64,000 bases of DNA, from the NCBI GenBank assembly GCA_001771585.1, contig MEUE01000001.1, positions 434,001 to 498,000 on the forward strand. Direction: 5' to 3'. The DNA comes from a candidate division WOR-1 bacterium RIFOXYB2_FULL_46_45. GTDB taxonomy: Bacteria > Margulisbacteria > WOR-1 > XYC2-FULL-46-14. This document shows positions 41 through 26,872 of this stretch, in pieces (position 1 is the first letter of the stretch; each line of letters starts with the position of its first letter). A program made the translations under genes and the position numbers. Below the pieces are notes generated by a model, which was given only the letters and a program-made list of their open reading frames with translations, ran no database searches and was not told where the DNA came from.

Positions 41-70
41 TGAAATTTTAGCGAGTTTTTGACGAAATAT
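41..70 (+). promoter_or_regulatory. Shared accessory-gene promoter motif, copy 1
   Basis: TGAAATTT lies at 41-48, followed by a 14-nt spacer and CGAAATAT at 63-70, just before the SD and ATG of the gene at 90. The same box and spacing recur at 13804, 25605(-), 25649 and 26872(-). The resemblance to copy 2 extends upstream (CCT-AAATAA-CTGAAATTT). The promoter role is inference from position and conservation. Confidence 0.6.
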
Positions 71-89
71 ATGTAGGAGGATAGCATAT

Positions 90-1973
90 ATGCCACCGGG
101 ACCAACAGCAACTGGACCAGTTGCAAGAGAAAGGCCTGTGCCCAGGACACCAAAACAAATTCCCGTTACCGGCGGTTCTGCTCTTATGCCTCGGGACATC
201 ACCATCGCGCCCACTACAGAAAGACGAACAATAGCAACCGTTCCAACCACACTGGAAAACATTAATCTCTCAACAAATGTAATAAACGAATTAAGAAATA
301 ATCGGCTAACCGATCTAAGCGAAGCCGAACAAACATTAAGAATCGATACGGGACTTAAAGAAATTGCCCGGATTAGATCAAATGCGGGGAAAAAAGAAGA
401 ACTGCAATTGGACCAGGTTGAAAAAGCAGAAGAAATAGGCCGTCTGGCATTATTGGCTAGCTTGCCTCCCAGATGGACAAAGGGATGGGAACCTCTTGTT
501 GAAGCAATTTTAGACAATGTTACAATAATAGAACTGGCTAGACATATTCAAGCAAGTGATCTGGTCTATTTTTGCGAAGCTTATCCTTTATTTAAAAAAA
601 TTCCGGTAAAACCGGAGAGTCCTGCCACCACAGCAAGAGACACGACTGCCGCTATAATCGCATGGGGAAGAACCATTGTTGAAACAATAATCCCCGGCAT
701 CGAAAGAGGATCAACCCAAATTATTGTTAATGCTTTTATGTGCGATCATACAAGAGATCTATTCTTCTCAACCTTAAAAACCGTGAAAATCGATAATCCC
801 GCTTTTGCAGAAAAAATGTGCACCACCTTGCTTTTGGCTGCGGATGAAATCAACGATATTCTTGGCGACACTACCGGCGGACAAGATTCGACGGCAAAAA
901 CAGAAAACTACATCGCCCGTTTAAACGATACAAACAAAGGCCGCGACAAAGAAGCAGCAGCTAGAGGAGCCATTGCTGTTATAAAAAAAGGAAGAAAAAA
1001 CAGTCTTTCTTTTAAGATTGCATCGGCAATTCTTGAAAGACAACCACTAGAAGCATTTGATCAATTATCGCAAGAATTATCCGCAACAAACAGTTCGATT
1101 TCCAGCCGCCTCCGCTTTTTTGCAAGCGGCCTTCCCGGCCTGCACTGGATCGGAGGAGAGACGAGAAGCATCTTTGATCTCATCCTGCAAATAATCAGCA
1201 ACATTAACTCTCCCGAACAATTAATGCAAATAATTAAATTGTTGGCGGAGCAAGACAACGGCGCCGCAAAAAAACTGCTGACTCATGCCATTGAAAGGTT
1301 GGACTATATAACAAGGTTGGGAATTTATGCCGGCACCACCTATCATCACAACATTGTTAATTTGTATTATTTACTGGAGGGCTCCTTATCTTTTTTTGAA
1401 TTTGCCAATCCAAAACAAACAATAAAAACCGCAATTGGGACGATTGAAGCGTTACGACAGCTTCATTTAACCCCCAAACAGACCGCGGAAACGATAAGGG
1501 CACTTTATACGGAAAATCCCGTTTTATATAGAATCGGGCTGCCTTATCTCCTAGAAAATCACGCGGAAAGAGAATTAAAGGACATTCTGGAATCTTCGCG
1601 AGGAGCAGAACGAATAGCCTCAATCCTCTCCATAATCGGATCGATCCTTCCCGCCGAAACCTACAACAGAAAAGAAGGCGAAGCAACTTCTATTTCCCAA
1701 GTCCCTCTTTTTGCCGAATTACAAATGGAGAAAATAATAAATCAGGATTATCGGCTCCCCTATTACAGGGCGCTCCAACCGGTTATTATAATGTTTTCGG
1801 ATGCCATAAAACAAGAAGAATTTAAACGCGTTGAAGATGCCCTGCGGGAAATAAAACAATATTTAGAAAGAACAAAAAAGACCCCTTATGAATTAGAGGA
1901 TATTCTGGGAGCCCTTTTAACAAAGAGCTTGGAAATTATGCTGATTTTAAAAGGTCAAGCGCGCCCCGAATAG
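90..1973 (+). CDS. Lineage-specific hypothetical protein, all-helical (627 aa)
   Basis: I do not recognise this family. AGGAGG at 75-80 fixes the ATG at 90. Residues 1 to about 50 are rich in Pro, Thr and Arg and look disordered. The rest reads as a long run of amphipathic helices, perhaps a HEAT-like solenoid. There is no signal peptide, membrane segment or obvious catalytic motif, so it is probably cytoplasmic. The last 38 nt lie antisense inside the 3' end of thiE, so the C-terminal residues are written on the complement of thiE codons. It carries the shared TGAAATTT-N14 promoter motif found before other unknown genes here, so it probably belongs to that regulon. No function is assigned. 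Confidence 0.75.
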   Translation: MPPGPTATGPVARERPVPRTPKQIPVTGGSALMPRDITIAPTTERRTIATVPTTLENINLSTNVINELRNNRLTDLSEAEQTLRIDTGLKEIARIRSNAGKKEELQLDQVEKAEEIGRLALLASLPPRWTKGWEPLVEAILDNVTIIELARHIQASDLVYFCEAYPLFKKIPVKPESPATTARDTTAAIIAWGRTIVETIIPGIERGSTQIIVNAFMCDHTRDLFFSTLKTVKIDNPAFAEKMCTTLLLAADEINDILGDTTGGQDSTAKTENYIARLNDTNKGRDKEAAARGAIAVIKKGRKNSLSFKIASAILERQPLEAFDQLSQELSATNSSISSRLRFFASGLPGLHWIGGETRSIFDLILQIISNINSPEQLMQIIKLLAEQDNGAAKKLLTHAIERLDYITRLGIYAGTTYHHNIVNLYYLLEGSLSFFEFANPKQTIKTAIGTIEALRQLHLTPKQTAETIRALYTENPVLYRIGLPYLLENHAERELKDILESSRGAERIASILSIIGSILPAETYNRKEGEATSISQVPLFAELQMEKIINQDYRLPYYRALQPVIIMFSDAIKQEEFKRVEDALREIKQYLERTKKTPYELEDILGALLTKSLEIMLILKGQARPE

Positions 1974-2910
1974 CAGCTACCCGATCTATCCCAACGGCTT
2001 TAATTTTCGAAATATTATTTCTATTTATCCCACCGATTGCCACAACCGGAACTTTTAGCTTTTCACTTATAACTTTTAACTTTTGAGCCCCAATTCCATT
2101 TTTCCCCGGCTTCGACGGTGTCTCAAAAATATTCCCGATAGCTATATAATCGGCCCCGGCTCTTTGGGCTTTCAACGCTTCGGCCAAATTGTGCGTTGAA
2201 ACTCCGATCAATTTATCGGGACCAAGAATTTTTCGGGCCTTCTTCGGATTCCCGTCTTTTTGCCCCAAATGGACCCCGTCCGCATCAACCTTTTTAGCAA
2301 CTTCAACGCTGTCGTTGACAATAAAAACAACCCCCGCCTGCCGAGTTAGTTTTTGAACTTTCTTCGCCAGTTGTAAGTATTTTGCTTTGGAAGCGAATTT
2401 ATCGCGCAATTGAACTATTTTTATCCCGGCCTTGATTGCTTCTTTAACGATTTTTATATGATCCCTCATCGGATCGGTCACCAGATAGACCTCAAAATCG
2501 AGCTTGACCGCCTTTAAAACCTTCGGTTCCATCATGGTCTCGATTTCGTACAATTTAAAGCGGAGCGCCTTAAATTTTTTCCCTAAAGAAGCGTCAATAA
2601 GTTTTGAAAACTCTTCCAGTGAGCGCAGCGCCTCTTGTCCCCTTTTGATATTAGACTTAAAAATATCCGAAAGATTTTTTCTTTTACCTTCGGACTCGGT
2701 ATAAAGCCTGGCTCCGATATCTTTTCCCGCTTCGCGGGATTTTTCGGCTTTGAGGCAACTAACCGCTTGTTTCAATTGGGCGCGCAATGTTTTTGTTTCG
2801 GCGGTTAGTTTGGGGTCTTCAAGAATAAAACGGGCAATTTCTTCAACCACACGGATCCCTTCCATCGCCCGGTTGGCGTTGGCGTCAAGGACGCGGAGTA
2901 TTTTTTTCAT
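1936..2910 (-). CDS. thiE: Thiamine-phosphate synthase with N-terminal ThiD2-like domain
   Basis: ThiE joins HMP-pyrophosphate to the thiazole phosphate to make thiamine phosphate. The C-terminal TIM barrel shows VQLRDK, NDSVEVAKKVDADGVHLGQ, VSTHN, IGNIFETPSKPG and VVAIGGI. The first ~125 residues match the ThiD2-type domain (DANANRAMEGIRVVEE) fused to ThiE in several anaerobes. The start chosen is the ATG at 2910 (MKKILRVLD); an upstream ATG at 2949 would add 13 unlikely residues. The gene overlaps the end of panD by 26 nt and ends an operon. A short tandem repeat at 2050-2085 encodes QKLKVISEKLKV in the barrel. Its 3' end overlaps the convergent gene 90-1973. Confidence 0.9.
   Translation of the reverse strand: MKKILRVLDANANRAMEGIRVVEEIARFILEDPKLTAETKTLRAQLKQAVSCLKAEKSREAGKDIGARLYTESEGKRKNLSDIFKSNIKRGQEALRSLEEFSKLIDASLGKKFKALRFKLYEIETMMEPKVLKAVKLDFEVYLVTDPMRDHIKIVKEAIKAGIKIVQLRDKFASKAKYLQLAKKVQKLTRQAGVVFIVNDSVEVAKKVDADGVHLGQKDGNPKKARKILGPDKLIGVSTHNLAEALKAQRAGADYIAIGNIFETPSKPGKNGIGAQKLKVISEKLKVPVVAIGGINRNNISKIKAVGIDRVAAIRGALDLLKSA
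2050..2085 (-). repeat. In-frame short tandem repeat inside thiE
   Basis: AACTTTTAGC/AACTTTTAAC-type units are repeated with little variation and read in frame as K-L-K-V-(I)-S-E-K-L-K-V. A related A/T-rich unit occurs in panB at 8881-8930. Insertion is inferred because ThiE homologues normally have unrelated sequence between the phosphate-binding loop and VVAIGGI. Confidence 0.6.
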
Positions 2911-3229
2911 CCGGTAAAACAATCTTTGGTTTAAAAGAAGCGGCCTCATCCGGAGTCAGCATGGCGTAGGACAAGATAATGACCTTGTCGCCGATTTTTC
3001 CCAACCGCGCCGCCGGCCCGCGCAATCCGATCTCCCCTTTTTCCCCTTCAATCACGTAAGTTTCAAAACGGTTACCGTTGTCGGCATTTATGACCTGAAC
3101 CTTTTCGTGCAAAAGGATCCCGGAGGCGGACATCAAATCGGGGCAAATGGCAATGCTCCCCATGTAATTTAATTCGGAGGAGGTTAAGGCCCCCATATGG
3201 ATTTTTGACTTAAGAAGCGTTAAAAACAT
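2885..3229 (-). CDS. panD: Aspartate 1-decarboxylase
   Basis: This pyruvoyl enzyme makes beta-alanine from aspartate for pantothenate and CoA. The self-cleavage site G24-S25 is visible in NYMGSIAI, and the family's K9 and the ALTSSELNY segment are present. Its length of 114 aa is normal. It has its own promoter, a TG-extended TATAAT at 3238-3243 ending 8 nt before the ATG, so the message should be almost leaderless. thiE follows with a 26-nt overlap. panB, the other pantothenate gene in the window, lies upstream in the same gene string. Confidence 0.93.
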   Translation of the reverse strand: MFLTLLKSKIHMGALTSSELNYMGSIAICPDLMSASGILLHEKVQVINADNGNRFETYVIEGEKGEIGLRGPAARLGKIGDKVIILSYAMLTPDEAASFKPKIVLPDEKNTPRP

Positions 3230-3237
3230 ACCCTTAA

Positions 3238-3243
3238 ATTATA
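3238..3243 (-). promoter_or_regulatory. -10 box of panD, near-leaderless
   Basis: The minus strand reads TGTTATAAT, an extended -10, with 8 nt between the box and the panD ATG. No SD fits in that gap. No clear -35 is visible, as is common for extended -10 promoters. Confidence 0.6.
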
Positions 3244-3250
3244 ACATATT

Positions 3251-4315
3251 CTAGACGCGGGTGCGGTTGGCGAGAGCGGAAAAAGAGACCTTGGATCCCT
3301 TGCCGATATAACACCAGCTCCCCACCACGCTCTCTTTGATCTGGGAGGATGAAAGGATGATCGAATCGGACCAAATGACACTGTCTAAAATTTTTGAGCC
3401 GCGGCTCACCACCACCCGGTCGCCGATCACCGAATTTTTAATTTCAACCTCGTCTTCAATCACCGTGTGGTCGCCGATCAAAACCGATCCTTTGAATTCG
3501 GCCGTTTTGGAGATTTTTGAGTTCCGCCCGATCCAATTGGCCGAAGAGATCCTTGAACCCGGGATATGCACCCCGACTTTACCCAGCATCGCGTCCCGAT
3601 TGGCCTCCAGATAAGTTTTTATCGTGCCGACATCCGACCAGTAGCCGAGCATCTTATAGCCGTAAAGCGCCCTCCCTTCCGCGGCCAAAAGAGGAAAGAG
3701 CTCTTTTCCAAAATCATACGGTTTCCCCTCCGGAATCATATCAAGGATCTCCGGCTCAAAAATATAGATCCCGGTATTGACCAGCCGCGAAAGCGCCTCT
3801 TCCTGCTTCGGCTTTTCCTGAAAGGCGGTTACGCGGCCGCTTTTTTCGTCCAAAACCACGACTCCGAACTGGGTCACATCGGAGACTTCGCAAAGGGCCA
3901 TCGTCGCCAAGACCCCTTTTTCTTTGTGAAAGGCAAGCATTTTGGAAAGATTGATGTCGGTCAAAGCGTCGGAGGAGAGGACTATAAAGGTCCGGTCAAT
4001 CCCCTCTCCCATTTTTTTTACCCCGCCGGCCGTACCCAAAAGTTTTTCTTCGTAGGAATAAGAAAGCGACACGCCGAACTTCTCTCCGTCCATAAAATAA
4101 TTCTCGATCTGTTCGGGGTGATAATGAATGTTGCAGGTAACCCGTTTGATCCCGTATCTTTTTAATAGTTCAAGATTGTGGAGCATGCACGGCTTGTTGA
4201 CTATCGGCATCATCGGCTTAGGAACCGCCGTCGTCAACGGCTCCAGCCGCGTCCCGTAACCGGCCGCCATGATCAAGGCTTGCGTCTCTTTTTCTTTCCT
4301 TCTTCCAAAGATCAT
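3251..4315 (-). CDS. NDP-sugar pyrophosphorylase (mannose/glucose-1-phosphate nucleotidyltransferase type)
   Basis: The protein transfers an NMP from an NTP to a sugar 1-phosphate to make a nucleotide sugar. The N-terminal Rossmann-like domain has the signature AAGYGTRLEPLTTAVPKPMMP (residues ~17-37), SSDALTD and QFGVV. Residues from ~245 to the end look like left-handed beta-helix hexapeptide repeats (IGDHTVIEDEVEIKNSVIGDRVVVSRGS), as in GMPP-type enzymes. It overlaps rpiB by 4 nt. Sugar specificity cannot be read from the sequence; a role in cell-surface glycan synthesis is inferred. Confidence 0.88.
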   Translation of the reverse strand: MIFGRRKEKETQALIMAAGYGTRLEPLTTAVPKPMMPIVNKPCMLHNLELLKRYGIKRVTCNIHYHPEQIENYFMDGEKFGVSLSYSYEEKLLGTAGGVKKMGEGIDRTFIVLSSDALTDINLSKMLAFHKEKGVLATMALCEVSDVTQFGVVVLDEKSGRVTAFQEKPKQEEALSRLVNTGIYIFEPEILDMIPEGKPYDFGKELFPLLAAEGRALYGYKMLGYWSDVGTIKTYLEANRDAMLGKVGVHIPGSRISSANWIGRNSKISKTAEFKGSVLIGDHTVIEDEVEIKNSVIGDRVVVSRGSKILDSVIWSDSIILSSSQIKESVVGSWCYIGKGSKVSFSALANRTRV

Positions 4316-4743
4316 TGTTCTATTTTCCTGATGCGGCGCAAATGCCTTTCGTCTCCGGAAAATTCTGTTTTAAGCCAGACATCGACGATCCGGTGCGCTT
4401 TGGCTCTGGTAACTTTACGGCCAGCCAAAGTTAAAATATTGACATCCCCGTGCTGGCGGCTCTGTTTGGCGATATAGGTATTATGCGCCAGCGCGGCGCG
4501 GATGCCAACCACCTTGTTGGCAACAATTGTGACCCCCACTCCCGATCCGCAGATTAGAATCCCACGATCGGCTACCCCCTTCGCTACCGCCTCCGCCGCC
4601 GGGCGGGCAAAATCCGGATAGTCGCACGATTCTTCGGAATTGGTCCCAAAATCGATCACTTCGTGTTTTTTTCTGGCCAGAAATTTTTTCAGGTCTTCTT
4701 TTAGCTTATATCCGGCATGGTCTGACGCCATTGCTATTTTCAT
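4312..4743 (-). CDS. rpiB: Ribose-5-phosphate isomerase B
   Basis: It interconverts ribose 5-phosphate and ribulose 5-phosphate in the pentose phosphate pathway. The hallmarks IAMASDHAGYKLKEDL at the N-terminus, FARPAAEAVA, ICGSGVGVTIVANKVVGIRAAL with the active-site Cys in CGSG, and HRIVDVWLKTEF near the end all fit RpiB/LacAB. The 143-aa length is normal. It overlaps pdxJ and the nucleotidyltransferase by 4 nt on either side, so it is translationally coupled in the operon. Confidence 0.94.
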   Translation of the reverse strand: MKIAMASDHAGYKLKEDLKKFLARKKHEVIDFGTNSEESCDYPDFARPAAEAVAKGVADRGILICGSGVGVTIVANKVVGIRAALAHNTYIAKQSRQHGDVNILTLAGRKVTRAKAHRIVDVWLKTEFSGDERHLRRIRKIEQ

Positions 4744-5426
4744 CTTATTGCCTCCCGCATTTCTTCAACTGCCTGCCGTATCCCCACAAAAACCGCCCTT
4801 ACTATTATACTAAATCCGATGTTCAATTCCTCTATCCCAGGAATTTTTAAGATCGGACCTATATTATTATAATCGATCCCGTGCCCGGCGTTTATTCTTA
4901 ATCCGATCAAACGAGCTTTCTGCACTGCTGTCCCAATCTTTCTGATCTCCCGATCTCCCAGTCTCCTGCTATACCGCCCCGTGTGAATCTCTATAAATCG
5001 CGCACCAAGGACGGCAGCTTCTTCTACTTGTTTTAGATCCGGATCAATAAACAAACTGACGTCTATCCCCTTATCTTGCAACTTATCAATTGTCTTCTTT
5101 AGTTTTGAAGTTAGGTGCAGGCCGCCTTCCGTTGTAACCTCCCGCCTCTTCTCGGGAACCAAAGTAACCATATCGGGTTTGATCTTGAGAGCAATTTTCA
5201 GCATCTCGTCGGTTGCGGCCATTTCCATATCCAAGCGGGTCGGAAGTTGACGCAATCTCTTTAAATCGCGATCATTGATATGGCGGCGGTCTTCACGCAG
5301 GTGGCAGACGATCCCGTCGGCTCCGCCGGCGATACATTCCTTAGCGGCTTCTACCGGATCGGGAAAAGCTTCCAGCCGGGCTTGACGCAAGGTGGCGATG
5401 TGGTCTACATTTACTCCCAATCTCAT
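4740..5426 (-). CDS. pdxJ: Pyridoxine 5'-phosphate synthase
   Basis: PdxJ condenses 3-amino-2-oxopropyl phosphate with deoxyxylulose 5-phosphate to give pyridoxine 5'-phosphate. The start [31 protein letters not shown]-type strand [25 protein letters not shown] and INAGHGIDY are all family signatures. Its neighbour ispF also belongs to a deoxyxylulose-phosphate-derived pathway. A short tandem repeat at 4942-4969 lies in the segment after IHTGRYS, where this protein is shorter than and different from homologues. It overlaps ispF and rpiB by 4 nt each. Confidence 0.94.
4942..4969 (-). repeat. In-frame short tandem repeat inside pdxJ
   Basis: GATCTCCC-like units (plus strand) repeat about three times with small variation and read as [11 protein letters not shown] in PdxJ. 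The position corresponds to a loop after the conserved IHTGRY. An inserted repeat is inferred from nucleotide periodicity and poor match to the family here. Confidence 0.5.
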
Positions 5427-5899
5427 ACTTTTTTATGCGCCAGGCAGATCGCGTAAGCGGAGATCCCCTGTCCTTTCCCGGTAAAACCGAGCCCTTCTTC
5501 CGTTTTTGCCTTGATATTCACCTGGTCCGGATCAATCGTTAGGGCCTTCGCGATGCTTTCTTTCATTTCCCTAAAATAAGGGGTCAGCTTCGGCTTCTGG
5601 CAGACGATCGTCGCATCGATATTATTGATGCTTGATTCCTTAAGTTCAATCAACTCGGTAATTTTTTCCAAAAGTTTCATGCTTGAGATCCCCTTATACT
5701 GCGGATCGGTGTCCGGAAAATGTTCACCGATACAGCCGGCCGAGAGCGCCCCCAAAATCGCGTCGATCACGGCGTGAACCAAAACATCGGCGTCGGAGTG
5801 GCCCAGCAATCCTTTTTCAAAAGGGATTTCCACTCCACCCAAAATAAGTTTGCGGCCTTTTCTTAGTTTATGGACATCGTAACCAATTCCTACCCGCAT
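5423..5899 (-). CDS. ispF: 2-C-methyl-D-erythritol 2,4-cyclodiphosphate synthase
   Basis: This is the MEP-pathway enzyme that cyclises CDP-ME 2-phosphate to MEcPP with release of CMP. Metal ligands D8 and H10 are in [42 protein letters not shown] and [21 protein letters not shown] are all present. Length is normal for the family (158 aa). It overlaps tyrS by 10 nt and pdxJ by 4 nt. ispH of the same pathway heads this gene string 7.8 kb upstream. Confidence 0.95.
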
Positions 5900-7062
5900 A
5901 TCACCCTCACGTATTTTAATTTTCCGACATTAAGCACAATTTCCAAAGAAAGATCGGCTTCAAATTTATCGTCCGCGACTTTTTGGTCGTTTACCCTGAC
6001 TCCGCCCTGCGAAATCAGCCTTCTCGCCTCCCCTTTTGAAGAAGCCAGCCCGGTTTTGACCATCAGGTCAAGGATGTTGGCCTTTTTTTCTTTTATTTTA
6101 ATCAGCAGGATATCTTGCGGAAGTTTTTTTTCCTTAAAGACCGCCTCAAATTCCTGCTCGGCCGCAATGGCCTTTTTCTCGTCGTAGAATCTGGCAACGA
6201 TCGTCTTTGCCAGGATCATTTTGGCCTCTTTGGGATGCATCCTTTTGATCTCTTCGGGAGACATCTCCGTTAACAGCGTAAAATAACGGTGCATCAGGGC
6301 ATCGGAAATCGACATCGTCTTCCCAAAAATTTCGGAAGGGGGCTCGGTAACGCCAATATAATTCCCGAGCGATTTGCTCATTTTTTGCACGCCGTCGGTC
6401 CCCTCAAGAATAGGCACGGTTAAAATAACCTGCGGCTCCTGTTTAAATTCCCTTTGCAGTTCGCGCCCGACCAAAAGATTAAATTTCTGGTCGGTGCCGC
6501 CGATTTCAAGATCGGACTTCAAATGGACCGAATCGTAGCCCTGGATCAGAGGATATAAAAATTCGTGGATTGAGATCGGCCGCTCTTTTTCAAAGCGGGT
6601 CATAAAATCTTCCCGCTCCAGCATCCGGGCAACGGTGTATTTTCCGGCCAGGTTAATCAGATCGGCCATTTTTAGGTCCGCCAGCCAGTTGCTGTTGTAA
6701 ACTACTTCGGTCTTTTTGGGATCAAGAATCTTGAAAACCTGCTTTTGGTAGGTTTTGGCGTTTTCTTTGACCTCTTCCGGCGACAAAATCGGCCGGGTCT
6801 CCGACTTTCCGGTCGGATCTCCAATCATGGCGGTAAAATCTCCGATCAAAAAGATCACATGGTGGCCCAGGTCCTGGAATTGCTTAAGTTTGTTTAAAAC
6901 AACGGTATGGCCAAGATGAATATCGGGAGCCGACGGGTCCGCCCCCCATTTTATCCTGAGCGGCTTGTTCCGCTTAAGTTTGCAGATCAGCTCCTCTTCG
7001 GGAAGAAGCTCAACAATGTTCTCTTTTATAATCCTTAAATGTTTTTCAACGTCTATTTGCAT
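5890..7062 (-). CDS. tyrS: Tyrosyl-tRNA synthetase
   Basis: TyrRS charges tRNA-Tyr. The class I signature appears as [11 protein letters not shown] (residues ~50-60) and the KMSKS loop as [27 protein letters not shown] binds tyrosine and tRNA. The C-terminal ~60 residues form an S4 RNA-binding domain ([21 protein letters not shown]). This is the TyrZ-like type with HLGH. It overlaps aroB by 10 nt and ispF by 10 nt. No T-box leader exists because the gene is embedded in an operon. Confidence 0.95.
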
Positions 7063-8072: not shown

Positions 8073-8536
8073 TTCACAATCTCCTCCACCACTTGGTCAA
8101 CCGACAACGCGGTCGTATCAATTTTAAAATCGGCCGCTTTCTCATAGGCCGGCTTTCTTTGTTCCAGCAAATCCCGTCTCAACAAAGGACGATTATTCGT
8201 CTGTTCCAACCGTTTGAAAACCGTCTCTTCGTCAACCCAAAGCAGGATCAGCGGCCCCAAGCGCTTGAGCATTGTAACATTTTCATCGCGCAAAATCATG
8301 CCTCCGCCGGTAGCAACGACAAAATTATCGTAATCTTGAAGGGTTTTTACAACTTCGGTTTCGAGATCGCGGAAATATTTCTCCCCTTTCTTTTCAAAGA
8401 TATCGGGGATCATCATCTTTTCGGTCTTCTCGATGAGAGGGTCGGTGTCAAGAAACTGCATGGAGAGCCGCTCGGCCAATTTTTGGCCGACCGCGGACTT
8501 TCCGCTCCCCATAAAGCCGATTAAGATAATGTTCAT
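8057..8536 (-). CDS. aroK: Shikimate kinase
   Basis: It phosphorylates shikimate at the 3-hydroxyl. Walker A is GFMGSGKSAVG (residues 7-17). The shikimate-binding DTD follows in FLDTDPLIE, then KYFRDLETEVV and the GGG of VATGGGMIL. The lid Arg is in NNRPLL. At 159 aa it is normal though slightly short. It directly follows tRNA-Arg(CCT) in the operon and overlaps aroB by 16 nt. Confidence 0.94.
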   Translation of the reverse strand: MNIILIGFMGSGKSAVGQKLAERLSMQFLDTDPLIEKTEKMMIPDIFEKKGEKYFRDLETEVVKTLQDYDNFVVATGGGMILRDENVTMLKRLGPLILLWVDEETVFKRLEQTNNRPLLRRDLLEQRKPAYEKAADFKIDTTALSVDQVVEEIVKWIKK

Positions 8537-13803: not shown

Positions 13804-13833
13804 TGAAATTTATTCAAAAATCTTCGGATAAAT
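13804..13833 (+). promoter_or_regulatory. Shared accessory-gene promoter motif, copy 5
   Basis: TGAAATTT at 13804-13811, a 14-nt spacer, then GGATAAAT at 13826-13833, 4 nt before the ATG at 13838. The spacing is identical to the other four copies. The GATA of the second box aligns exactly. Confidence 0.6.
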
Positions 13834-13837: not shown

Positions 13838-15463
13838 ATGGGAACAGCACTTTCGGCGGCAAGAAGCCAACAATCATTACTGGGCTGGCCAAATTACCCT
13901 GCAGTAGCCCGGCCGGCCCCGCTTAGGACTGTCAAAACAGGCTGGCAGGAGCAGGCCGTCCATGTTGTAAACAATTCCCCTACTCCGGCACAGGACCTGA
14001 TGCCGTTTTATGACACCCATCTTCCCCGCGAAGTTACTCAAGTCATAATTGAAGCGGTAAAAGCGGATGGCGCCGCTAAACTGGCCCAGGCAATTGGGGT
14101 CATCAGGAGCCCGGAGGTTGAAAGGATAGCAAAAGAGATTGAAGCGATATCAAAAGAACTGGCAGGCCAAGTCCTGGTCGGCAATGAAAATTTTTATAAT
14201 TTATGTTCAACCAATGCTTTAATAATCCCCGCTGAATTAGATAATGATAAAACAAAACCGCAGTTAGAAGAAGTTCTGCCTTTTCTTTTTGTCAGCGAAC
14301 TTAGGGACATGCAATTGCTAGTCGGGCTGGCACAAGACCCCAAACTAAGAAGAGAAACAATTAGCAAGCGGCAATCCTACGCGCCAACGGAAGAGGCAAA
14401 CGAATTACGGGCAAGATTGCTTGAAAAGATAAAAGAGTTAAGGAGCGAACTACTAAGAATAGAACATAACTGGGAGGCCCTGAAGCTTCCCCGTAAAGCA
14501 AAAAATAGTATTGCCAGCAGAAGAACCGCCAAAAGGACATCCATCTCTGCGCAGATGATTGCCCTCTACGATGTCGATAAACAAATCAGCCACGATATTG
14601 CACGCTGTTTTGGAATAAGGTTTAGTCCTTTCCATCCTTGTTTGCACGGAATTGATCTTCTTCATGGCAGGAAAATGACCTTCTCGTACCATCTCCTTGA
14701 TCTGTGCGAGTCTTATTCCCATCTTATGCATGTAGCCTCTGTTCTGGAAACAAATTACTGCCGCCTGGGGGGAACATTGTTTCCGATAGAAGATTTTGAT
14801 CCGGCCGTAATTGGAAAAACAGCGGCAATAAATGCCTCTTTCCGCAACATGATGCCGTTAAATACCGGATCGCCGTCAAAAGCCGGGCATGTAAACTATC
14901 AACCCGATCCGGCAACCCCTCGTATAACCGGCTATCCGTCTATGCTCGAAATACTTTTATATAACTTACTTAAAAACCCGACCAGATTTATTGAGGAAGA
15001 GAAAGAAAGAGATTTTTTTGTTGACCTTGAGATACGTCCCGACCGTAAATTCCCTGATGTAGCCATCGCCACGGTTGAAGATAACGCAACCGGGTTCAAT
15101 GTTCATGCACTATTCCGGCGGGCGGTCGAAGAGGCGGAAAAGCAGAAAGAAAACGGAACAATCAATCTCTATCCCATACTAAAAAGGATCCTGGCCTGTA
15201 AAGATAAACCTTTCATGTTCCGCGGATTTACCGTCGGAGAGCTGATGGATATGGCTCTTCTGCCACGGCTCTCCGCAAGCTATAGGGACACAATTTCCTC
15301 CGGCATAGGACTTGATGAAGCCAACCATATCTGCCAGTTAAACGGCTGGGACATTATGATTACAAACACAACCACCGGCGGAGCGCTGGTCTGGATAATT
15401 ATGGGAGAGAAAGAAAAACTGGACAAAATTATCGCGAGAGAATTGGGGCAATTCATCCTTTAG
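13838..15463 (+). CDS. Histidine-kinase-like protein with degenerate GHKL ATPase domain
   Basis: The C-terminal third matches the GHKL ATPase fold of histidine kinases. An N-box-like LEILLYNLLKNPTRF lies at 370-384, a G1-like VEDNATGF at 413-420, a G2-like SSGIGLDEANHICQLNGW at 487-504, and TTGGALVWI at 512-520. H252 in ISHDIARCF could be the phospho-acceptor H-box. Residues ~180-215 are Glu/Arg-rich and may form a coiled coil. There is no membrane segment or sensor domain, and motifs deviate from consensus, so activity is uncertain. No SD precedes the ATG, which lies just after the shared promoter motif. The gene is bracketed by a 20-bp direct repeat and overlaps dapL by 4 nt. Confidence 0.6.
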   Translation: MGTALSAARSQQSLLGWPNYPAVARPAPLRTVKTGWQEQAVHVVNNSPTPAQDLMPFYDTHLPREVTQVIIEAVKADGAAKLAQAIGVIRSPEVERIAKEIEAISKELAGQVLVGNENFYNLCSTNALIIPAELDNDKTKPQLEEVLPFLFVSELRDMQLLVGLAQDPKLRRETISKRQSYAPTEEANELRARLLEKIKELRSELLRIEHNWEALKLPRKAKNSIASRRTAKRTSISAQMIALYDVDKQISHDIARCFGIRFSPFHPCLHGIDLLHGRKMTFSYHLLDLCESYSHLMHVASVLETNYCRLGGTLFPIEDFDPAVIGKTAAINASFRNMMPLNTGSPSKAGHVNYQPDPATPRITGYPSMLEILLYNLLKNPTRFIEEEKERDFFVDLEIRPDRKFPDVAIATVEDNATGFNVHALFRRAVEEAEKQKENGTINLYPILKRILACKDKPFMFRGFTVGELMDMALLPRLSASYRDTISSGIGLDEANHICQLNGWDIMITNTTTGGALVWIIMGEKEKLDKIIARELGQFIL

Positions 15464-20553: not shown

Positions 20554-21847
20554 GTTGGTTTAAGGCGGGATCATCGATCACTTTTTCCAGCAGAGAATTC
20601 AAGGTCTCTCCAACTTTAGGGCTCGGCCCGATTTGTAAAATTTGCATGACATCCTGGCCGTTCACCGCCAGATCGGAAACTTTAAGGGCATTTTCATCGG
20701 CAACAATCTTGTCAATCCGTTTTTTTAGTTCCAAAAGATAGCCCGAATCGATCTCCCGCTCCATCGCGGAGGTATCCGCGATACGCAGGGCAAAAAGGTC
20801 AAGAAGGTTTTCCATCCCCACCCGATTTATAAACCGCCGCACCGCCGCATCTGTCCAACTGCTTTCGTAGTTGAACATATGGTTTTTTATAAGATTTATT
20901 ACCTTATTCGTAAGCTCATTTCCAAACTTCAACCGCTTAAGGATAGCGTAAGCGATCTCTCCTCCCTTCTGGTCGTGGCCGTAAAAATGGTCGCCGTCTT
21001 TGCACTCCGGTTTTGAGATATCGTGGAGAAGGGCCGCCAGCCGGACTGCCGGACGATCCTTTGGCGCCGCGTCGCAGGCATAAAGAGAGTGATAAAAAAC
21101 GTCATACTTGTGGAACTCGCGCGGCTGTTTGACTCCAACCGCCAAGACCAGCTCGGGGATAAAAAGATTAAGCAGGCCGGTCTTCAACATATAATCGAAA
21201 CAGATTGAAGGATAGTCGGCTTTGGTTAAAACCTTGATGATCTCATCGTGGATCCGCTCCCGCGCCACCTTTTGTACCACGTTCAGCGATTGTTTAACTG
21301 CCGAAAGGGTCTTTTTTTCGATCTTAAAGTTGAGCTGGGCGGCAAAGCGGCAGGCGCGGACGGTCCGCAGGCCGTCCTCAAAAAAGCGCGCCAGCGGGTC
21401 TCCCACCGTCCTTATGATTTTTTTCTTGAGATCTTTTTGGCCGTTATATTCGTCAACCAATTCCCCTTTGACCGGGTCAAACGCCATGGCGTTGACGGTA
21501 AAATCGCGGCGGCTCAAATCTTCGTGCAGTTCTTTCGAAAAGTTGACGATAGAAGGATGCCGGCCGTCCAGGTAGCGCCCTTCGGTTCGAAAGGTGGTCA
21601 CTTCGTATTTTCCGTCTTCCAAAATAATCAGCTGGGTGCCAAATTCAAGTCCGGTCGGGACGACTTTTTGGAAACTCTGCGCCACCTCTTCGGGCCTGGC
21701 ATCGGTTGTGAGGTCCCATTCGTCCGGACATTTTCCCATGAGGAGATCGCGGACCGAGCCGCCAACCAGATAGCATTTAAATCCCCGGTCCTGCAGTTTT
21801 TTTACGATCTCCATGGCCCCATGGGGTATTTGGAATTGTTCAAACAT
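20525..21847 (-). CDS. CCA-adding enzyme / tRNA nucleotidyltransferase (class II) with HD domain
   Basis: A class II nucleotidyltransferase that builds or repairs tRNA CCA ends or adds poly(A). YLVGGSVRDLLMG (residues ~26-38) with DEWDLTTDARPEEV carries the catalytic acidic pair, here E-W-D instead of D-x-D. RRDFTVNAMA, DGLRTVRACRFAAQL and the ERIHDEIIKVL segment follow. The C-terminal half has an HD motif (ALLHDISKPE). The window's tRNA lacks an encoded CCA, so CCA addition is needed. A -10 box lies 8 nt before the ATG. It overlaps amiC. Confidence 0.9.
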   Translation of the reverse strand: MFEQFQIPHGAMEIVKKLQDRGFKCYLVGGSVRDLLMGKCPDEWDLTTDARPEEVAQSFQKVVPTGLEFGTQLIILEDGKYEVTTFRTEGRYLDGRHPSIVNFSKELHEDLSRRDFTVNAMAFDPVKGELVDEYNGQKDLKKKIIRTVGDPLARFFEDGLRTVRACRFAAQLNFKIEKKTLSAVKQSLNVVQKVARERIHDEIIKVLTKADYPSICFDYMLKTGLLNLFIPELVLAVGVKQPREFHKYDVFYHSLYACDAAPKDRPAVRLAALLHDISKPECKDGDHFYGHDQKGGEIAYAILKRLKFGNELTNKVINLIKNHMFNYESSWTDAAVRRFINRVGMENLLDLFALRIADTSAMEREIDSGYLLELKKRIDKIVADENALKVSDLAVNGQDVMQILQIGPSPKVGETLNSLLEKVIDDPALNQREILLKLIK

Positions 21848-21855
21848 ATGTCGAT

Positions 21856-21861
21856 AGTTTA
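21856..21861 (-). promoter_or_regulatory. -10 box of the CCA-transferase operon, near-leaderless
   Basis: TAAACT on the minus strand, 8 nt before the ATG at 21847, with TTGTAG 17 nt upstream. It overlaps the divergent promoter of the gene at 21892. Confidence 0.45.
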
Positions 21862-21863
21862 CC

Positions 21864-21885
21864 TTAAATATTTCTGTGCTACAAT
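21864..21885 (+). promoter_or_regulatory. Leaderless promoter of the DUF4015 gene
   Basis: A TACAAT -10 at 21880-21885, with TTTACC 16 nt upstream as -35 (partly outside this span, 21858-21863). Only six bases (AGCCGC) separate the box from the ATG and no SD exists, so the transcript should be leaderless. Confidence 0.55.
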
Positions 21886-21891
21886 AGCCGC

Positions 21892-22905
21892 ATGAAGCGC
21901 TTCCTCTTCTCCTTTTTGGCCCTGGTTATCCTTTTCTCTCTTTCGGCTTCGATCGCAAAAGAGAAACGGACCGCGGACAAAGGGCTTTACATCACCTATT
22001 GGATCAGCCAGACCCGGAACCGTTTTGATTATATAAAAAAGCAGGCCAAAGCGGCCGGGTTCAATACTTTGATAATTGATGTGAAACAAAAAATCGAAGC
22101 ACCATTAATCCCCCTTGTGAAAAGCCGGTCGCTAAATGACAGATACGAAGTACAGGCGGATCCGTGGCTTACTCAATTGGTAAAGGAACTGCATGAGGAA
22201 GGTTTTATTGTTTCCGGTAGAATTGTGGTTTTCAAAGACGACCATCTGGCGATCGCGCGGCCGGACCTGGCGATCACCGGCTACCGGGACCGTAAAGGTG
22301 GCCGCTGGGTTTCTCCTCATCTCAAAGAGGTCCGGTTATATAATGCCTTGATCGCGGAGATCGCGGCCAAATCGGGGATCGATGAAGTCCAATTTGATTA
22401 TATCCGCTTTCCGGCAGAGGGAGCGATCCCAACCGACCGAAGGTCAAAGGTTGACGCCATTAACCAGTTTTTGAAAGAGGCAAAAGAACGGCTGCAAAAA
22501 TACGATGTTTCGATCGCGGTTGATATTTTCGGAGTGACCGCCTGGCAGAGCGACTTTGACATCAAGACACTTGGTCAAAGCATTGAAGCGATGGCGGAAT
22601 ATATTGATGTCTTATGCCCAATGCTCTACCCTTCGCATTTCCACAACGGCTATGATGGTTTTGCGAATCCGGGAGACCACCCGTATTATTTTATTAACAG
22701 CGGAGTCGCAAAATCGCTTGAGTTGATCGGTGATAAGAAGGTTAAACTGGTCCCGTGGCTCCAGGGCTTCGCGCTGGGGACCAACAACTTCGGCAAGAAT
22801 TATATCCAACAGCAGATCAATGCCTGCACCGATGAAGGAGTTTCCAGTTTTCTAATCTGGAACGCGGGGAATAGATACGATAGTTTGCCGGTAAAAAACA
22901 ACTAG
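21892..22905 (+). CDS. Secreted DUF4015-type putative glycoside hydrolase
   Basis: Residues 1-22 form a signal peptide (MKRFLFSFLALVILFSLSASIA), cleaved near SIAKEK. The rest is one TIM-barrel-like domain resembling the DUF4015 putative glycosyl hydrolase family. GLYITYWISQTRN opens the barrel, then TLIIDVKQK, RIVVFKDDHLA, DEVQFDYIRFPAEG with acidic candidates, VDIFGVTAW, CPMLYPSHF and FLIWNAGNRYD follow. The substrate is unknown; a role in cell-wall or surface glycan turnover is inferred. It converges on and overlaps the DHH-like gene by 4 nt. Confidence 0.85.
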   Translation: MKRFLFSFLALVILFSLSASIAKEKRTADKGLYITYWISQTRNRFDYIKKQAKAAGFNTLIIDVKQKIEAPLIPLVKSRSLNDRYEVQADPWLTQLVKELHEEGFIVSGRIVVFKDDHLAIARPDLAITGYRDRKGGRWVSPHLKEVRLYNALIAEIAAKSGIDEVQFDYIRFPAEGAIPTDRRSKVDAINQFLKEAKERLQKYDVSIAVDIFGVTAWQSDFDIKTLGQSIEAMAEYIDVLCPMLYPSHFHNGYDGFANPGDHPYYFINSGVAKSLELIGDKKVKLVPWLQGFALGTNNFGKNYIQQQINACTDEGVSSFLIWNAGNRYDSLPVKNN

Positions 22906-24284
22906 GCTGCCACCGCCATTCCCCCAAAAACTCGCTTCGGCCTATTTAATGCGATCAAATGCAATTGATAATATTTCATCGCCAAATCTTTTAATGTAAA
23001 TATTTCGTCGCATTCATATCCGCCTTTCCGGCAATATGCTCGTGCCACTTCCAATTCTTGCTCAATCGTTTTTTCGGCATCCGGCAACAGCGCCCGAATT
23101 ATTTTTTTACAGCTTTCTGCCCGTCTTTCTCTCGGGATAATCCCAATAAAATCATCCAATATCAGAGCGGGAACAAGCCCTTTGCCAATCAGCTCGGTTA
23201 AATTAGCCCTCAACTGTTCGCGAAGATATTTGGTAATTTCAACACTAATGTCTGTCGGCGTTAATATACTTCCCGTATCCTGATTTTTTGCGGATCCCCC
23301 TGCCACATTACGACCGCCCCAGCTGTCCTGATCCAAAAGAATAGGCAGCCTCCACTCTCTCCTTTTTTTGTTTTCTGCGATTCGAAGATTTACCCATAGT
23401 CCTGTCAAATCAAAATCGGCCATGGTGGGGTTTTGCCCTACAACATATGTATTTCTTCCTTCTTGTGACGAAACAATACGGATCGTCAAAGCATGCCGAT
23501 CGGCCTGATAAATAACAACCGGCGGAAGAGAAGCGTCCGTTACCAAAGAGACCTCTTCCCCTGTCCAATAAGGAATAATAGTTCCCTTACTGATTGCCAG
23601 CTCTCTTGCCGCCTTTAATTTTGCCAATTCCCCTTCATATAAATCGGAAAAACCCTCAATATTATTAAGCATCAGGGGAATGGCATCTAGAACATCATTA
23701 AAAAGCTTCTGCTGATCCAACGGAGAAAGCTTAAAAAATGGCAGATGAAAACTGTTCTTCCCGAATATCATGGCATTAATGGTTAGTGCCAATTTCATCG
23801 CATCGTCTCCGACCTCTTCAATATAATCGCCGTAACGGGACGCCGCGGACAGAAGTTTTTTATCGGTATCGGTTAAATTAAATTCTAATTTGGGAGAAAG
23901 AGCAACAAAAGTGGAGCAGACGCTGTCTAAATCAATATGATCGACAATAACGGCATAATCGCCTGTAAATTCGGAACGTCTTGTTTCATAAGCATGTATC
24001 GCGACTTCGGTTGCCGTCTTACCCGGATTTGCCCCGTCATGATGGTCGAAATTGCCAACTAAAAGAGAACTAATATCCCCCACGCCCGCATCTGATAATG
24101 CCTGTCTTGACCTGCCCAAAGCAAAATCAACGGTAATAACTCTTGTGCGGCTACAAACCAGAGAAGAAATTGTCTGCACCAATTCCTTCTGGCCAACCAA
24201 TGGACTTGCCAATGTTACCCCTTTTATTGCCGGCATAATTCTGGAAACAGAAACCGAAGCGGGACCCCCAATTCTTCCAACCAT
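22902..24284 (-). CDS. Lineage-specific protein with DHH-phosphoesterase-like motifs
   Basis: I do not recognise a named family. FDHHDGANPGKTATEVA (DHH at 80-82) and VDHIDLDSVCSTFVA (D115, H116, D118, D120, S121) resemble the metal-binding motifs of DHH-type phosphoesterases. They lie in the opposite order from the usual one. D153 in RYGDYIEE could be a further ligand. There is no signal peptide or membrane segment. It follows the HD-domain gene by 54 nt in the same direction, so the two probably form an operon driven by promoter copy 4. Phosphodiesterase activity is a guess. Confidence 0.5.
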   Translation of the reverse strand: MVGRIGGPASVSVSRIMPAIKGVTLASPLVGQKELVQTISSLVCSRTRVITVDFALGRSRQALSDAGVGDISSLLVGNFDHHDGANPGKTATEVAIHAYETRRSEFTGDYAVIVDHIDLDSVCSTFVALSPKLEFNLTDTDKKLLSAASRYGDYIEEVGDDAMKLALTINAMIFGKNSFHLPFFKLSPLDQQKLFNDVLDAIPLMLNNIEGFSDLYEGELAKLKAARELAISKGTIIPYWTGEEVSLVTDASLPPVVIYQADRHALTIRIVSSQEGRNTYVVGQNPTMADFDLTGLWVNLRIAENKKRREWRLPILLDQDSWGGRNVAGGSAKNQDTGSILTPTDISVEITKYLREQLRANLTELIGKGLVPALILDDFIGIIPRERRAESCKKIIRALLPDAEKTIEQELEVARAYCRKGGYECDEIFTLKDLAMKYYQLHLIALNRPKRVFGGMAVAA

Positions 24285-24338
24285 TTTGTTTTCTCCTGTT
24301 TAATGTTTTTTTACAATTCTCTCAGCCTAACCAATGAC

Positions 24339-25478
24339 CTACCTCCCCACCGCAAGTGGCGAAGAGATTTTTTTTCTTTTAGCAAATTCCTTTGCGGAAT
24401 CCGTACATAGATAATTAATATCTACCTCGTCTTGCAACCGTATTAATTGCAACCTGTCGGCATCCCATAACACAGCAATTAATTCTTTTATTAGTCCCCA
24501 TCCCCCTACCTCGGAATAATTCTCAATAATCGGAAACCCGCCATTGGGAGCCTTTCTGTCCGCATGATGCAAAACGGCAAACTCAATTGTTTTGACTTCT
24601 ATTTCCGTTAGATTAAATCTATTAACGATTGATTTACCCAGTTCAGCAGAGCGTCTGGCGTGTTCGGGGTCGGATCCGTCTGATTCTCTCCCGAGGTCAT
24701 GAATGAAAGCCGCAATGATTGCAGCCTTTTTGTGTTCCGGGCACTCAATTTGAGCAAGTTCCGCCGCAAGGTTTACAACTTCCAAAGTATGCCCCCATGG
24801 ATGATTTCTTGCGCTAGGTAATTTATAAATAGAGAAGCTTTCTTTCCTTAATTCAATTTCCCATTCTTCAATCTCCCGATAATCCAGGTCCAACTTTACC
24901 GGATTTTCGGCAATAAACATTTGTGAACCAGCGGGGATTACAACCTCCGGAAAGACAAAAGGCCGGCTCAGTCTGGTAGCCAACTTTTCATTATATTCCA
25001 TCAATGTAAGCGCGGTCATAAAATACTGCTCCGCTAATGGCTCTCTCCCGTTATTCACCGCTTTTTGCGCTTCATCATAAGCAAGCGCCTCCGCCGCATA
25101 GTTTGGCTCTTCTCCCCATGCACAATTCCCTCTTGCTCCAGAGTGTCTCATTAAAAAAGCAGTCAGATCCGGTACACGACCGGCTCTGTCAACAAACAGA
25201 GCATCCGCAACAAATGTTTTATTGGGATCAACAAACAACAAAACAGCAACCTCTCCCTGATGCATTGTTCCAATCCTGCTCCGGTCAATTGACGCAAGAT
25301 CGGGATAAGCATAAATACTGCCGGAACGGGAAAATGATCTCCACCACAGCGACATCAAAGCATCAAATTTCAAAAAAAGGGTCTTGGGCCTGGTTCCGCC
25401 CGTAAGGAGGGCAGGATTTTGACAAGCTAACGCAGCTCCATCTTCTGTTGTTAGGTGAACAACCGGAACCATCTTCAT
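24339..25478 (-). CDS. HD-domain metal-dependent phosphohydrolase with unknown N-terminal domain
   Basis: Residues ~225-345 form an HD domain: HPWGHTLEVV (H230), IAAFIHDLGRES (H260-D261), VLHHADRKAP (H304-H305, D307) and LWDADRLQL (D339/D341). Such domains hydrolyse phosphate esters of nucleotides. Residues 1-215 are of unknown type and have no membrane segment. The SD is weak and no other in-frame start exists before an upstream stop. Promoter copy 4 lies about 95 nt upstream. Pairing with a DHH-like gene invites comparison with nucleotide-second-messenger hydrolases, but the sequence does not prove it. Confidence 0.7.
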   Translation of the reverse strand: MKMVPVVHLTTEDGAALACQNPALLTGGTRPKTLFLKFDALMSLWWRSFSRSGSIYAYPDLASIDRSRIGTMHQGEVAVLLFVDPNKTFVADALFVDRAGRVPDLTAFLMRHSGARGNCAWGEEPNYAAEALAYDEAQKAVNNGREPLAEQYFMTALTLMEYNEKLATRLSRPFVFPEVVIPAGSQMFIAENPVKLDLDYREIEEWEIELRKESFSIYKLPSARNHPWGHTLEVVNLAAELAQIECPEHKKAAIIAAFIHDLGRESDGSDPEHARRSAELGKSIVNRFNLTEIEVKTIEFAVLHHADRKAPNGGFPIIENYSEVGGWGLIKELIAVLWDADRLQLIRLQDEVDINYLCTDSAKEFAKRKKISSPLAVGR

Positions 25479-25572
25479 CTGGAATAATTTCTCGGCAGAA
25501 AAAAGCTTGGGAGCATCTGCTCCGCAGGAACGAAATCTTAATGTTTATGAAATTGATATTGCCATAATTCTA

Positions 25573-25605
25573 TATATATATCGTTAAAATGAAAGCGAAA
25601 TTTCA
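25573..25605 (-). promoter_or_regulatory. Shared accessory-gene promoter motif, copy 4
   Basis: On the minus strand TGAAATTT (25605-25598) is followed by 14 nt and CGATATATATA. It points toward the HD-domain gene starting at 25478. The spacer ends with CATTTTAA, nearly the same as copy 3. Confidence 0.65.
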
Positions 25606-25648
25606 TCTATGATAAAACTTTTCTAAAACCATAAACCCTTAAATAATC

Positions 25649-25680
25649 TGAAATTTCCGCAGTTTTTTTTCGATATATAT
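25649..25680 (+). promoter_or_regulatory. Shared accessory-gene promoter motif, copy 2
   Basis: TGAAATTT at 25649-25656, a 14-nt spacer, then CGATATATAT at 25671-25680, followed by AGGAGG as in copy 1. It points to the gene at 25737. Confidence 0.65.
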
Positions 25681-25736
25681 ACAGAGGAGGTTAACGACGA
25701 TAGGCGGTCGACAAAAACTTATAAAGGGAGGAAAAA

Positions 25737-26171
25737 ATGCAAGCGATAAATCGATCATATCTCTCCGCAAGGGTTCATTACCAATCACGGCCCCTAAGAG
25801 AAAAGACATTGCACCTTGGACATTTAAGGGCATTGAGAATGGATGGGAATCGGAAAATCCTGCAATCTATTCAGCCAACAAGGCGAGGATGGGATATTTT
25901 AGATAGTATGATATCAAACGCTAATCTTGGATTTGGCACCCAAATTGACCTGGAAGAAGTTCGTATTAAAGTTTTAGAAAATGGCTTGCCTCCTCTTTTT
26001 GAGGAATTGGGCAAAATGCTCATGGCCTTAGAAGAAACCCCGAGTATGAATACCGAACCAATTATCGCCCATATGATTCATACTCAACCGGAAAGAATGG
26101 CAAGAGAACTTAAGGAATATTTAGATTTAGATATAACACAACTTACAGCAAGAAAACCTAATTGGTCTTAA
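25737..26171 (+). CDS. Lineage-specific hypothetical protein (144 aa)
   Basis: I do not recognise it. A strong GGGAGG SD at 25725-25730 decides the ATG. The N-terminal ~45 residues are basic (HYQSRPLREKTLHLGHLRALR) and the rest is acidic and helical. There is no signal peptide, membrane segment or Cys cluster. It lies under promoter copy 2. Its stop is 2 nt from the convergent 26174 gene. Its promoter and location tie it to the accessory group. Confidence 0.65.
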   Translation: MQAINRSYLSARVHYQSRPLREKTLHLGHLRALRMDGNRKILQSIQPTRRGWDILDSMISNANLGFGTQIDLEEVRIKVLENGLPPLFEELGKMLMALEETPSMNTEPIIAHMIHTQPERMARELKEYLDLDITQLTARKPNWS

Positions 26172-26173
26172 TT

Positions 26174-26803
26174 CTAAAGATATCTTAATTTCCGAAATAA
26201 CCATTCACCTTGCGCCTCTTTAGAAAGACTATTCCATTCCTTGACAAGTTTTGCTCCTCTTACAGAAGTTAAAAATAGTCTGCCTGCTGATACATATATG
26301 TGAGCTTCCGCTCCTTCTTCATGCATGCCAAAATGGATCATTTCACTTAATAAAGCGGCATAATCATCCAATGTTCTGATTTGCTCGTTCATTTCTCTTA
26401 ATTTTAAGGATATTGCCGCGCTAAGATCAAGTTCTCTGGCCTGCTCCATCTGACAACATAATTCGCGTGCAAGCATGGCGCCCCACTCCATAGTGGCCCA
26501 CAAATCTCTTCCAGGATTTTTAAGCAATGCTAAAGGCTGTTTTCTATCAGACGATCCTAAGTATTGGGCGATCCCATGAGCAATCCGTGGACCTTTCCCC
26601 CTTAATTCATTTATTTTATCCGCGCTCGCCCGGTATCCTCCAATATTATATCCGGGAACGGTTATTTTGATGCCCCTCCCGACAATATCCGCCGCCTTGC
26701 CCGCAATATTTTGGATCCGAACCGGAACGTTTCTTTTTGCCCAAGCCAAAGTACAAATAGCATGATATCCCAAGTTATATTTCATCGTAGTAATTCCTGT
26801 CAT
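26174..26803 (-). CDS. Lineage-specific hypothetical protein (209 aa)
   Basis: I do not recognise it. CAGGAG lies 10 nt before the ATG. The N-terminal ~60 residues (VPVRIQNIAGKAADIVGRG, VPGYNIGGYRASADK) are mixed. Residues ~105-160 look like helices with Cys-Cys in LARELCCQMEQ, and the end carries a short beta pair (AHIYVSAGRLFLTSV). No signal peptide or membrane segment is visible. It is preceded by promoter copy 3 and is divergent from the HExxH gene at 26927. Confidence 0.65.
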   Translation of the reverse strand: MTGITTMKYNLGYHAICTLAWAKRNVPVRIQNIAGKAADIVGRGIKITVPGYNIGGYRASADKINELRGKGPRIAHGIAQYLGSSDRKQPLALLKNPGRDLWATMEWGAMLARELCCQMEQARELDLSAAISLKLREMNEQIRTLDDYAALLSEMIHFGMHEEGAEAHIYVSAGRLFLTSVRGAKLVKEWNSLSKEAQGEWLFRKLRYL

Positions 26804-26840
26804 TGTTTTAATCTCCTGCTTTTAATTTGTTATGCCCTAT

Positions 26841-26872
26841 ATATATATCGTTAAAATTAAATGGAAATTTCA
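26841..26872 (-). promoter_or_regulatory. Shared accessory-gene promoter motif, copy 3
   Basis: On the minus strand TGAAATTT (26872-26865), a 14-nt spacer, then CGATATATAT (26850-26841), 37 nt before the ATG at 26803. Confidence 0.65.

Follow-up and report, generated by a model that had tools for sequence, protein, structure and literature searches.

A sigma-28-type promoter motif and a putative filament-less flagellar export system in Candidatus Saganbacteria (WOR-1)

The stretch analysed here (the window) comprises 64,000 nucleotides (nt) of contig MEUE01000001.1 from the bacterium RIFOXYB2_FULL_46_45, a member of Candidatus Saganbacteria (WOR-1), Margulisiibacteriota, with a genome of 1,698,899 bases that is 99.5% complete. 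It contains five exact copies of a two-box motif, TGAAATTT-N14-SGAWAWAT, each pointing at a gene start. Together with flagellar-type operons encoded outside the window, these putative promoters point to what is probably a repurposed flagellar secretion system, with the motif supplying a list of its predicted cargo.

Motif copies and target genes in the window

The first copy (41..70, + strand, TGAAATTT-N14-CGAAATAT) is followed by 19 nt with a Shine-Dalgarno sequence and the ATG at position 90 of a gene for a protein of 627 amino acids (aa) with an N-terminus rich in Pro, Thr and Arg (90..1973, +), which matched no Pfam or NCBIfam family. The second copy (13804..13833, +, TGAAATTT-N14-GGATAAAT) lies 4 nt ahead of an ATG, and the mRNA is therefore predicted to be leaderless. 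Its 541-aa product (13838..15463, +) contains degenerate GHKL/histidine-kinase-like ATPase motifs in the C-terminal third (HATPase_c, E 0.07, below the cut-off) and is a paralogue, with a conserved N-terminus, of the product of another motif-driven gene (L075). The remaining three copies share the form TGAAATTT-N14-CGATATAT. One (25576..25605, -) precedes a gene for a 379-aa HD-domain phosphohydrolase-like protein (24339..25478, -; HD, E 3e-7, residues 229-310), in which approximately 230 residues without a family assignment precede the domain. The other two (25649..25678, +, and 26843..26872, -) precede genes for proteins of 144 aa (25737..26171, +) and 209 aa (26174..26803, -), both with basic N-termini and no matched family. 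Two window targets were modelled with AlphaFold, one from a two-row alignment and one from the sequence alone; the models reached a mean pLDDT (predicted local distance difference test) of 35 and 39 and were unusable.

The preliminary description of this DNA had listed the same five copies. All were located with the starts it gave, and the ends of the last three had been set 2-3 nt too far (correct: 25576, 25678 and 26843). Dinucleotide shuffles of the window contained a mean of 0.02 copies. The whole genome holds 37 exact matches and none to the reversed pattern used as a control, in agreement with the view that the invariant motif did not arise by chance. The proposed scan of relatives yielded 81 sites in a genome of the same family (counted in the form SGATAWAT), and the motif was present in all 22 sampled genomes of the class (1-79 sites each; reversed controls zero everywhere). 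Among the sampled phylum genomes outside the class it is rare or absent. With the spacer allowed to range from 6 to 30 nt, N14 was recovered in 34 of 37 genomic matches, as in all five window copies, so that the claimed exact 14-nt spacer held; two matches had N15 and one was a re-pairing of a -35 box that had been counted before. A 44-column matrix, trained without the window sites, scored these five at 36-43 bits and the runner-up position at 7.5 (Markov shuffles: mean maximum 0.4, overall maximum 15.8), a gap that partly reflects the motif definition because the training sites were picked by the exact pattern. No population of near-miss motifs was found in the window by the matrix scan. Outside the boxes, the sequence logos of the analysed genome, its family relative and other class genomes share an A/T-rich region upstream, a spacer whose first positions are T, and ATATAG downstream.

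All five window sites are fully non-coding with a same-strand gene start at most 100 nt away, a situation found at 1.4% of random positions (95% of the window is coding). Genome-wide, an open reading frame (ORF) of at least 80 aa starts at most 100 nt away at 35 of 38 sites, a total that takes in one N15 site. A chance origin of the motif was rejected on the shuffles, genome counts, matrix scores and placement. This strict placement at gene starts, the locked spacing and the number of genomic sites bear out the earlier proposal of an accessory regulon, here as a predicted one. By ORF sizes and sequence, positions 39000-64000 read as a ribosomal-protein/rpoBC cluster with no motif copy inside or before it, which agrees with the reported lack of the motif in front of ribosomal operons.

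The geometry of the motif matches that of sigma-28 promoters, for which the consensus TAAAGTTT-n11-GCCGATAA has been published (PMC2859248). When the two are aligned at their AAA triplets, CGATA lies 20 nt from the first A of the triplet in each, and the motif can be rewritten in sigma-28 layout as GAAA-N15-nnCGATAw. Of 91 sites in five genomes, 20 have the start codon 3-9 nt past the -10 box, and in 13 of these the gap is exactly 4 nt, which makes the A of the ATG the expected transcription start (leaderless mRNA); most remaining sites have a Shine-Dalgarno sequence further downstream. The assignment of the motif as a sigma-28 promoter in layout, suspected from the outset, is thus supported by genome counts, locked spacing, upstream placement, the published consensus and the FliA/WhiG-like sigma factor described below. 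Two conserved boxes at fixed spacing would also fit the operator of a dedicated DNA-binding activator or repressor instead of a promoter, but the boxes are not palindromic, they keep a fixed distance to leaderless ATGs, and their spacing is exactly that of sigma-28, for which a matching sigma gene is present. We regard the operator alternative as very improbable; the preliminary description had left the choice between an alternative sigma factor and a dedicated activator, of which the former stands and the latter is unlikely from the geometry.

Candidate sigma factors and the flagellar-type operons

The genome encodes four sigma factors with a region-2 domain, namely RpoD, a FliA/WhiG-like sigma factor (P0006), an extracytoplasmic function (ECF) sigma factor of approximately 160 aa and a sigma factor of 203 aa. 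The same-family genome with 81 sites encodes only the first three of these types. P0006 matched Sigma-70 regions 2 and 4 (PF04542, PF04545), and its best NCBIfam match was TIGR02479 FliA_WhiG (E 1e-41). The FliA/WhiG-like sigma factor and the motif were both found in the same 22 of 22 sampled class genomes. From what is known of its family, this sigma factor very probably reads the motif, and the predicted promoter recognition is well supported. RpoD was set aside as a specific reader, being the housekeeping sigma factor, as was the 203-aa sigma factor, which the 81-site relative does not encode. The ECF sigma factor is the sole other alternative sigma factor common to both family genomes, and the motif, written as TGAAAT-N16-CGATAT, is ECF-like in layout with regard to its -35 TGAAA and -10 CG elements. 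Against this, the ECF sigma factor is missing from six of the 22 motif-bearing class genomes (G004, G025, G029, G037, G042 and G046), including the 100% complete G004 and G037 with its 26 motif sites. The exact motif is absent at the ECF gene itself, though ECF autoregulation is common, and the conserved -10 box CGATAWAT exceeds ECF -10 boxes in length. Recognition by the ECF sigma factor is therefore a highly improbable alternative, rejected on its phylogenetic distribution.

The preliminary description had suggested looking for a FliA-like gene without flagellar genes. A FliA/WhiG-like gene was found, but flagellar genes are not absent: the sigma gene, which lies outside the window, is part of a basal-body/export operon. 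The order of this operon is fliK-flgF-flgG-flgA-flgH-flgI-sigma-flgB-flgC-fliE-fliF-fliG-fliH-fliI-fliJ, with a short FlgJ-like ORF between flgI and flgB, and it is identical in five contigs (the analysed genome, its family relative and three other class contigs). A second operon comprises fliK, a short FlgE/G-like gene, fliM, fliN, fliO, fliP, fliQ, fliR, flhB and flhA. Genes for the export gate and ATPase complex (FlhA identified by profile; FliM, FliN and FliF by Pfam; FliO, FliP, FliQ, FliR, FlhB, FliI, FliH and FliJ by reading sequence and gene order) and for the rod, P-ring and L-ring (FlgG by NCBIfam, FliE by Pfam; FlgB, FlgC, FlgF, FlgI, FlgH and FlgA by reading sequence and conserved order) are present. 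FlhB retains the NPTH cleavage site, and FlhA was detected in 22 of 22 class genomes and 52 of 55 phylum genomes. The kept P- and L-ring genes argue for a putative origin in the flagellar branch over an injectisome, i.e., a non-flagellar type III secretion system (NF-T3SS). No exact motif was found near either operon of the genome, and the apparatus genes are therefore not obvious regulon members.

Flagellin (Flagellin_N, PF00669) was detected in none of the 22 class genomes and in 8 of 55 phylum genomes. MotA/ExbB stator components (PF01618) were detected in one of the 22 class genomes and not in the analysed genome; control genomes were positive for both families. The anti-sigma factor FlgM (PF04316) was found in 0/22 class genomes and detected in the Escherichia coli, Bacillus subtilis and Thermotoga maritima controls. 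Furthermore, FliG of the analysed genome (172 aa) has the N domain and part of the M domain but lacks the FliG_C torque domain as judged by Pfam. With flagellin, stator and FliG_C undetected, the apparatus resembles a flagellar export channel that lacks a filament, a stator and a torque ring. Retention of rod, ring and C-ring genes would also be expected of a true flagellum with a flagellum-associated regulon if its flagellin and stator had diverged beyond detection, and profile searches may miss diverged genes. This is nevertheless improbable given the distribution of flagellin and MotA/ExbB, the lack of FliG_C, and the eight flagellated genomes of the same phylum, which do yield flagellin and carry a second FlhA. 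These flagellin-positive members (G003, G006, G010, G013, G017, G021, G024 and G028) each have at least two FlhA matches, which suggests a true flagellum beside a flagellin-less system.

Composition of the predicted regulon

The majority of targets in the analysed genome have no Pfam family and are lineage-specific. The claim that the motif precedes lineage-specific genes only thus mostly held, and failed genome-wide for divergent enzyme paralogues, two NtrC-type regulators and one apparent small RNA. The paralogues include a PurA-like protein with a 42-residue extension (domain from residue 43), encoded in addition to a normal housekeeping PurA, and a PtsI-like protein in which the PTS_I match starts at residue 73. 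The domains of a FkbM methyltransferase, a radical SAM protein and a metallophosphoesterase begin at residues 83, 35 and 526 (of 806), respectively. Further targets are an HD protein, a LysM protein, a Com-like zinc ribbon protein and soluble histidine-kinase-like GHKL proteins, one of them the product of the window gene at 13838. In other class genomes, extended targets include two Ser/Thr kinases (domains from residues 51 and 54), a DHH protein (from 64) and a methyltransferase (from approximately 105), and additional targets carry RelA/SpoT, GH8, FGE-sulfatase and MutS_V domains. Target sets differ strongly between genomes, with few targets alike across them in this partial sampling, a turnover as expected of fast-evolving cargo.

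N-terminal composition was compared between 69 targets and 95 controls, with starts limited to an ATG with a Shine-Dalgarno sequence or at a leaderless position and with hydrophobic N-termini excluded. At residues 2-40, Arg is more frequent in targets (9.4% vs 5.1%; p=1e-7) and Asp+Glu is less frequent (7.4% vs 11.4%; p=1e-5), and neither differs at residues 101-140. An earlier test with a looser start choice gave the same direction at weaker significance, clear in the analysed genome and weak in G001. These Arg-rich, acid-poor N-termini, which are not Sec signals, could resemble an export signal. The sole motif found among target N-termini is a K[LI][ILV][SA]F-like start in several paralogues of one genome (G001: L088, L092, L099, L108, L110, L112 and L115), which is also present in L027 of the analysed genome. 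L099 carries the FGE-sulfatase domain, which is C-type-lectin-like; this fold is often diversified by diversity-generating retroelements.

Several individual loci of the analysed genome merit description. The NtrC-type targets L005 and L045 are 62% identical to each other, and both of their promoters are leaderless. As both are sigma-54 response regulators, a cascade from sigma-28 to sigma-54 is possible, and NtrC-type regulators together with soluble kinases recall the FlgS/FlgR-sigma-54 arm of polar flagellates. At L076 (C1:802900), the leaderless ORF ends after 22 codons and a 531-aa ORF continues in another frame, which could reflect a frameshift, an assembly error or a programmed shift. 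A third PurA-like ORF (approximately 498 aa, weak match) adjoins a motif-driven gene at C3:37402-38547. The motif at L079 (2528-2557, +; C3:375327) is followed by no ORF and by a stretch of approximately 70 nt ending in a strong intrinsic terminator, which makes a sigma-28-dependent small RNA likely; sigma-28-dependent non-coding RNAs occur in Campylobacter (PMC4626219).

Proposed function and comparison with known systems

We propose that the FliA/WhiG-family sigma factor, encoded in the basal-body/export operon, recognises the motif promoters, and that this operon would build an export apparatus of rod, P/L rings, C-ring parts, ATPase and FliPQR-FlhBA gate with no detectable flagellin. Since FlhA is kept without detectable flagellin, FlgM, MotA/ExbB or torque domain, the sigma targets would not be filament genes, and since the sigma gene lies inside the operon of a system in which neither flagellin nor stator is recognisable, its regulon would replace the late filament genes. 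In place of filament and chemotaxis genes there would thus be tens of targets, both lineage-specific proteins and enzyme paralogues with extensions, transcribed by sigma-28 RNA polymerase often as leaderless mRNAs and exported by the filament-less apparatus as effector-like substrates via signals in their first ~40 residues. The flagellar analogy suggests that completion of the channel may govern sigma release, an idea that stays speculative because FlgM was not found. Taken as a whole, a filament-less flagellar T3SS with its own sigma-28 controlling its cargo is probably the correct reading. From family knowledge, the target products may well be secreted by the flagellar-type apparatus.

Several observations weigh against this reading. 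P0006 scores 143 bits, under the curated TIGR02479 cut-off of 189.6, as do all 22 class orthologues (131-146 bits), and it is therefore named FliA/WhiG-like and not a certified FliA. At the first base of the -35 box and at the GC of GCCGATAA the motif deviates from the classical consensus, and FlgM, as stated, was not detected. The apparent loss of flagellin was judged by Flagellin_N, and FlgK and FliD were not searched for. The N-terminal bias is a group-level statistic with no common motif and with start codons chosen by rule. Finally, some targets look cytosolic or regulatory (the NtrC-type regulators L005 and L045, the regulator L042, an unextended 6PGD (L100) and an RRM protein) and a few have Sec-type N-termini (L046 and L122), so that the regulon would not be pure cargo. 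The same targets fit a true sigma-28 promoter serving an ordinary cytosolic/surface stress or lifestyle regulon that is not exported by the apparatus, like that of Streptomyces WhiG, a case in which sigma-28 has been uncoupled from flagella. We consider this unlikely because the sigma gene sits inside the export operon in every genome examined, most target N-termini are Arg-rich, acid-poor and without Sec signals, and several enzyme paralogues carry additional N-terminal stretches.

If the filament-less secretion system is real, it would mean that flagella have evolved into secretion systems along a second route as well, distinct from that of the injectisome and taken in a lineage near Cyanobacteria, and it may show survival of sigma-28 control after the loss of motility. 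The gene content suggests that a swimming organelle was turned into a secretion system in this uncultured class related to Cyanobacteria. The chances are evenly balanced that the whole class turned its flagellum into a protein-delivery machine that kept the sigma-28 checkpoint, with channel completion licensing cargo expression, and swapped the late regulon for fast-evolving effector-like cargo (kinases, RelA/SpoT-like proteins, methyltransferases, PurA-like proteins and other extended enzyme paralogues). To our knowledge, no host is known for the Saganbacteria lineage. The signature TGAAATTT-N14-CGATAWAT would list the predicted cargo in any class genome and so turn a dark proteome into candidate secreted proteins open to testing.

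No description of a Margulisbacteria/Saganbacteria system of this kind was found in a literature search whose coverage left out most subscription journals, nor any account of a filament-less flagellar system that extends across a class and has a cargo regulon under its own sigma-28. A comparative-genomics paper on Saganbacteria does not mention flagella, motility or secretion (PMC6349859). The motif resembles class 3 flagellar sigma-28 (FliA/WhiG) promoters in geometry (PMC2859248) and in the FliA/WhiG-family sigma factor encoded in a flagellar operon. It differs in that the -35 box TGAAATTT is almost invariant and the GC before CGATA is not kept, and the regulon differs from class 3 regulons in that its targets are not flagellin or chemotaxis genes and no FlgM was found. 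FliA-family sigma factors without a swimming flagellum are known from Streptomyces (WhiG) and Chlamydia (sigma-28), but these are not encoded within a flagellar export operon able to export the regulon products. Closest in evolution are the T3SS of Myxococcales and other non-flagellar T3SS, which consist of a flagellum-derived export apparatus minus motility parts (Abby and Rocha 2012, PMC3459982). The basal Myxococcales systems lack FlgBCDE, FliE, FliG and FlgH (PMC3459982), which are at least partly kept here, and the system described here has, unlike theirs, remained flagellar in its gene set, which includes rod, P/L rings and a sigma-28 of its own. In logic, the nearest parallel is offered by the Feds of Campylobacter jejuni, four sigma-28-dependent non-flagellar proteins secreted via the flagellar export apparatus (PMC5223770); C. 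jejuni keeps a working flagellum, whereas in Saganbacteria tens of genes are involved and the filament and motor are apparently gone.

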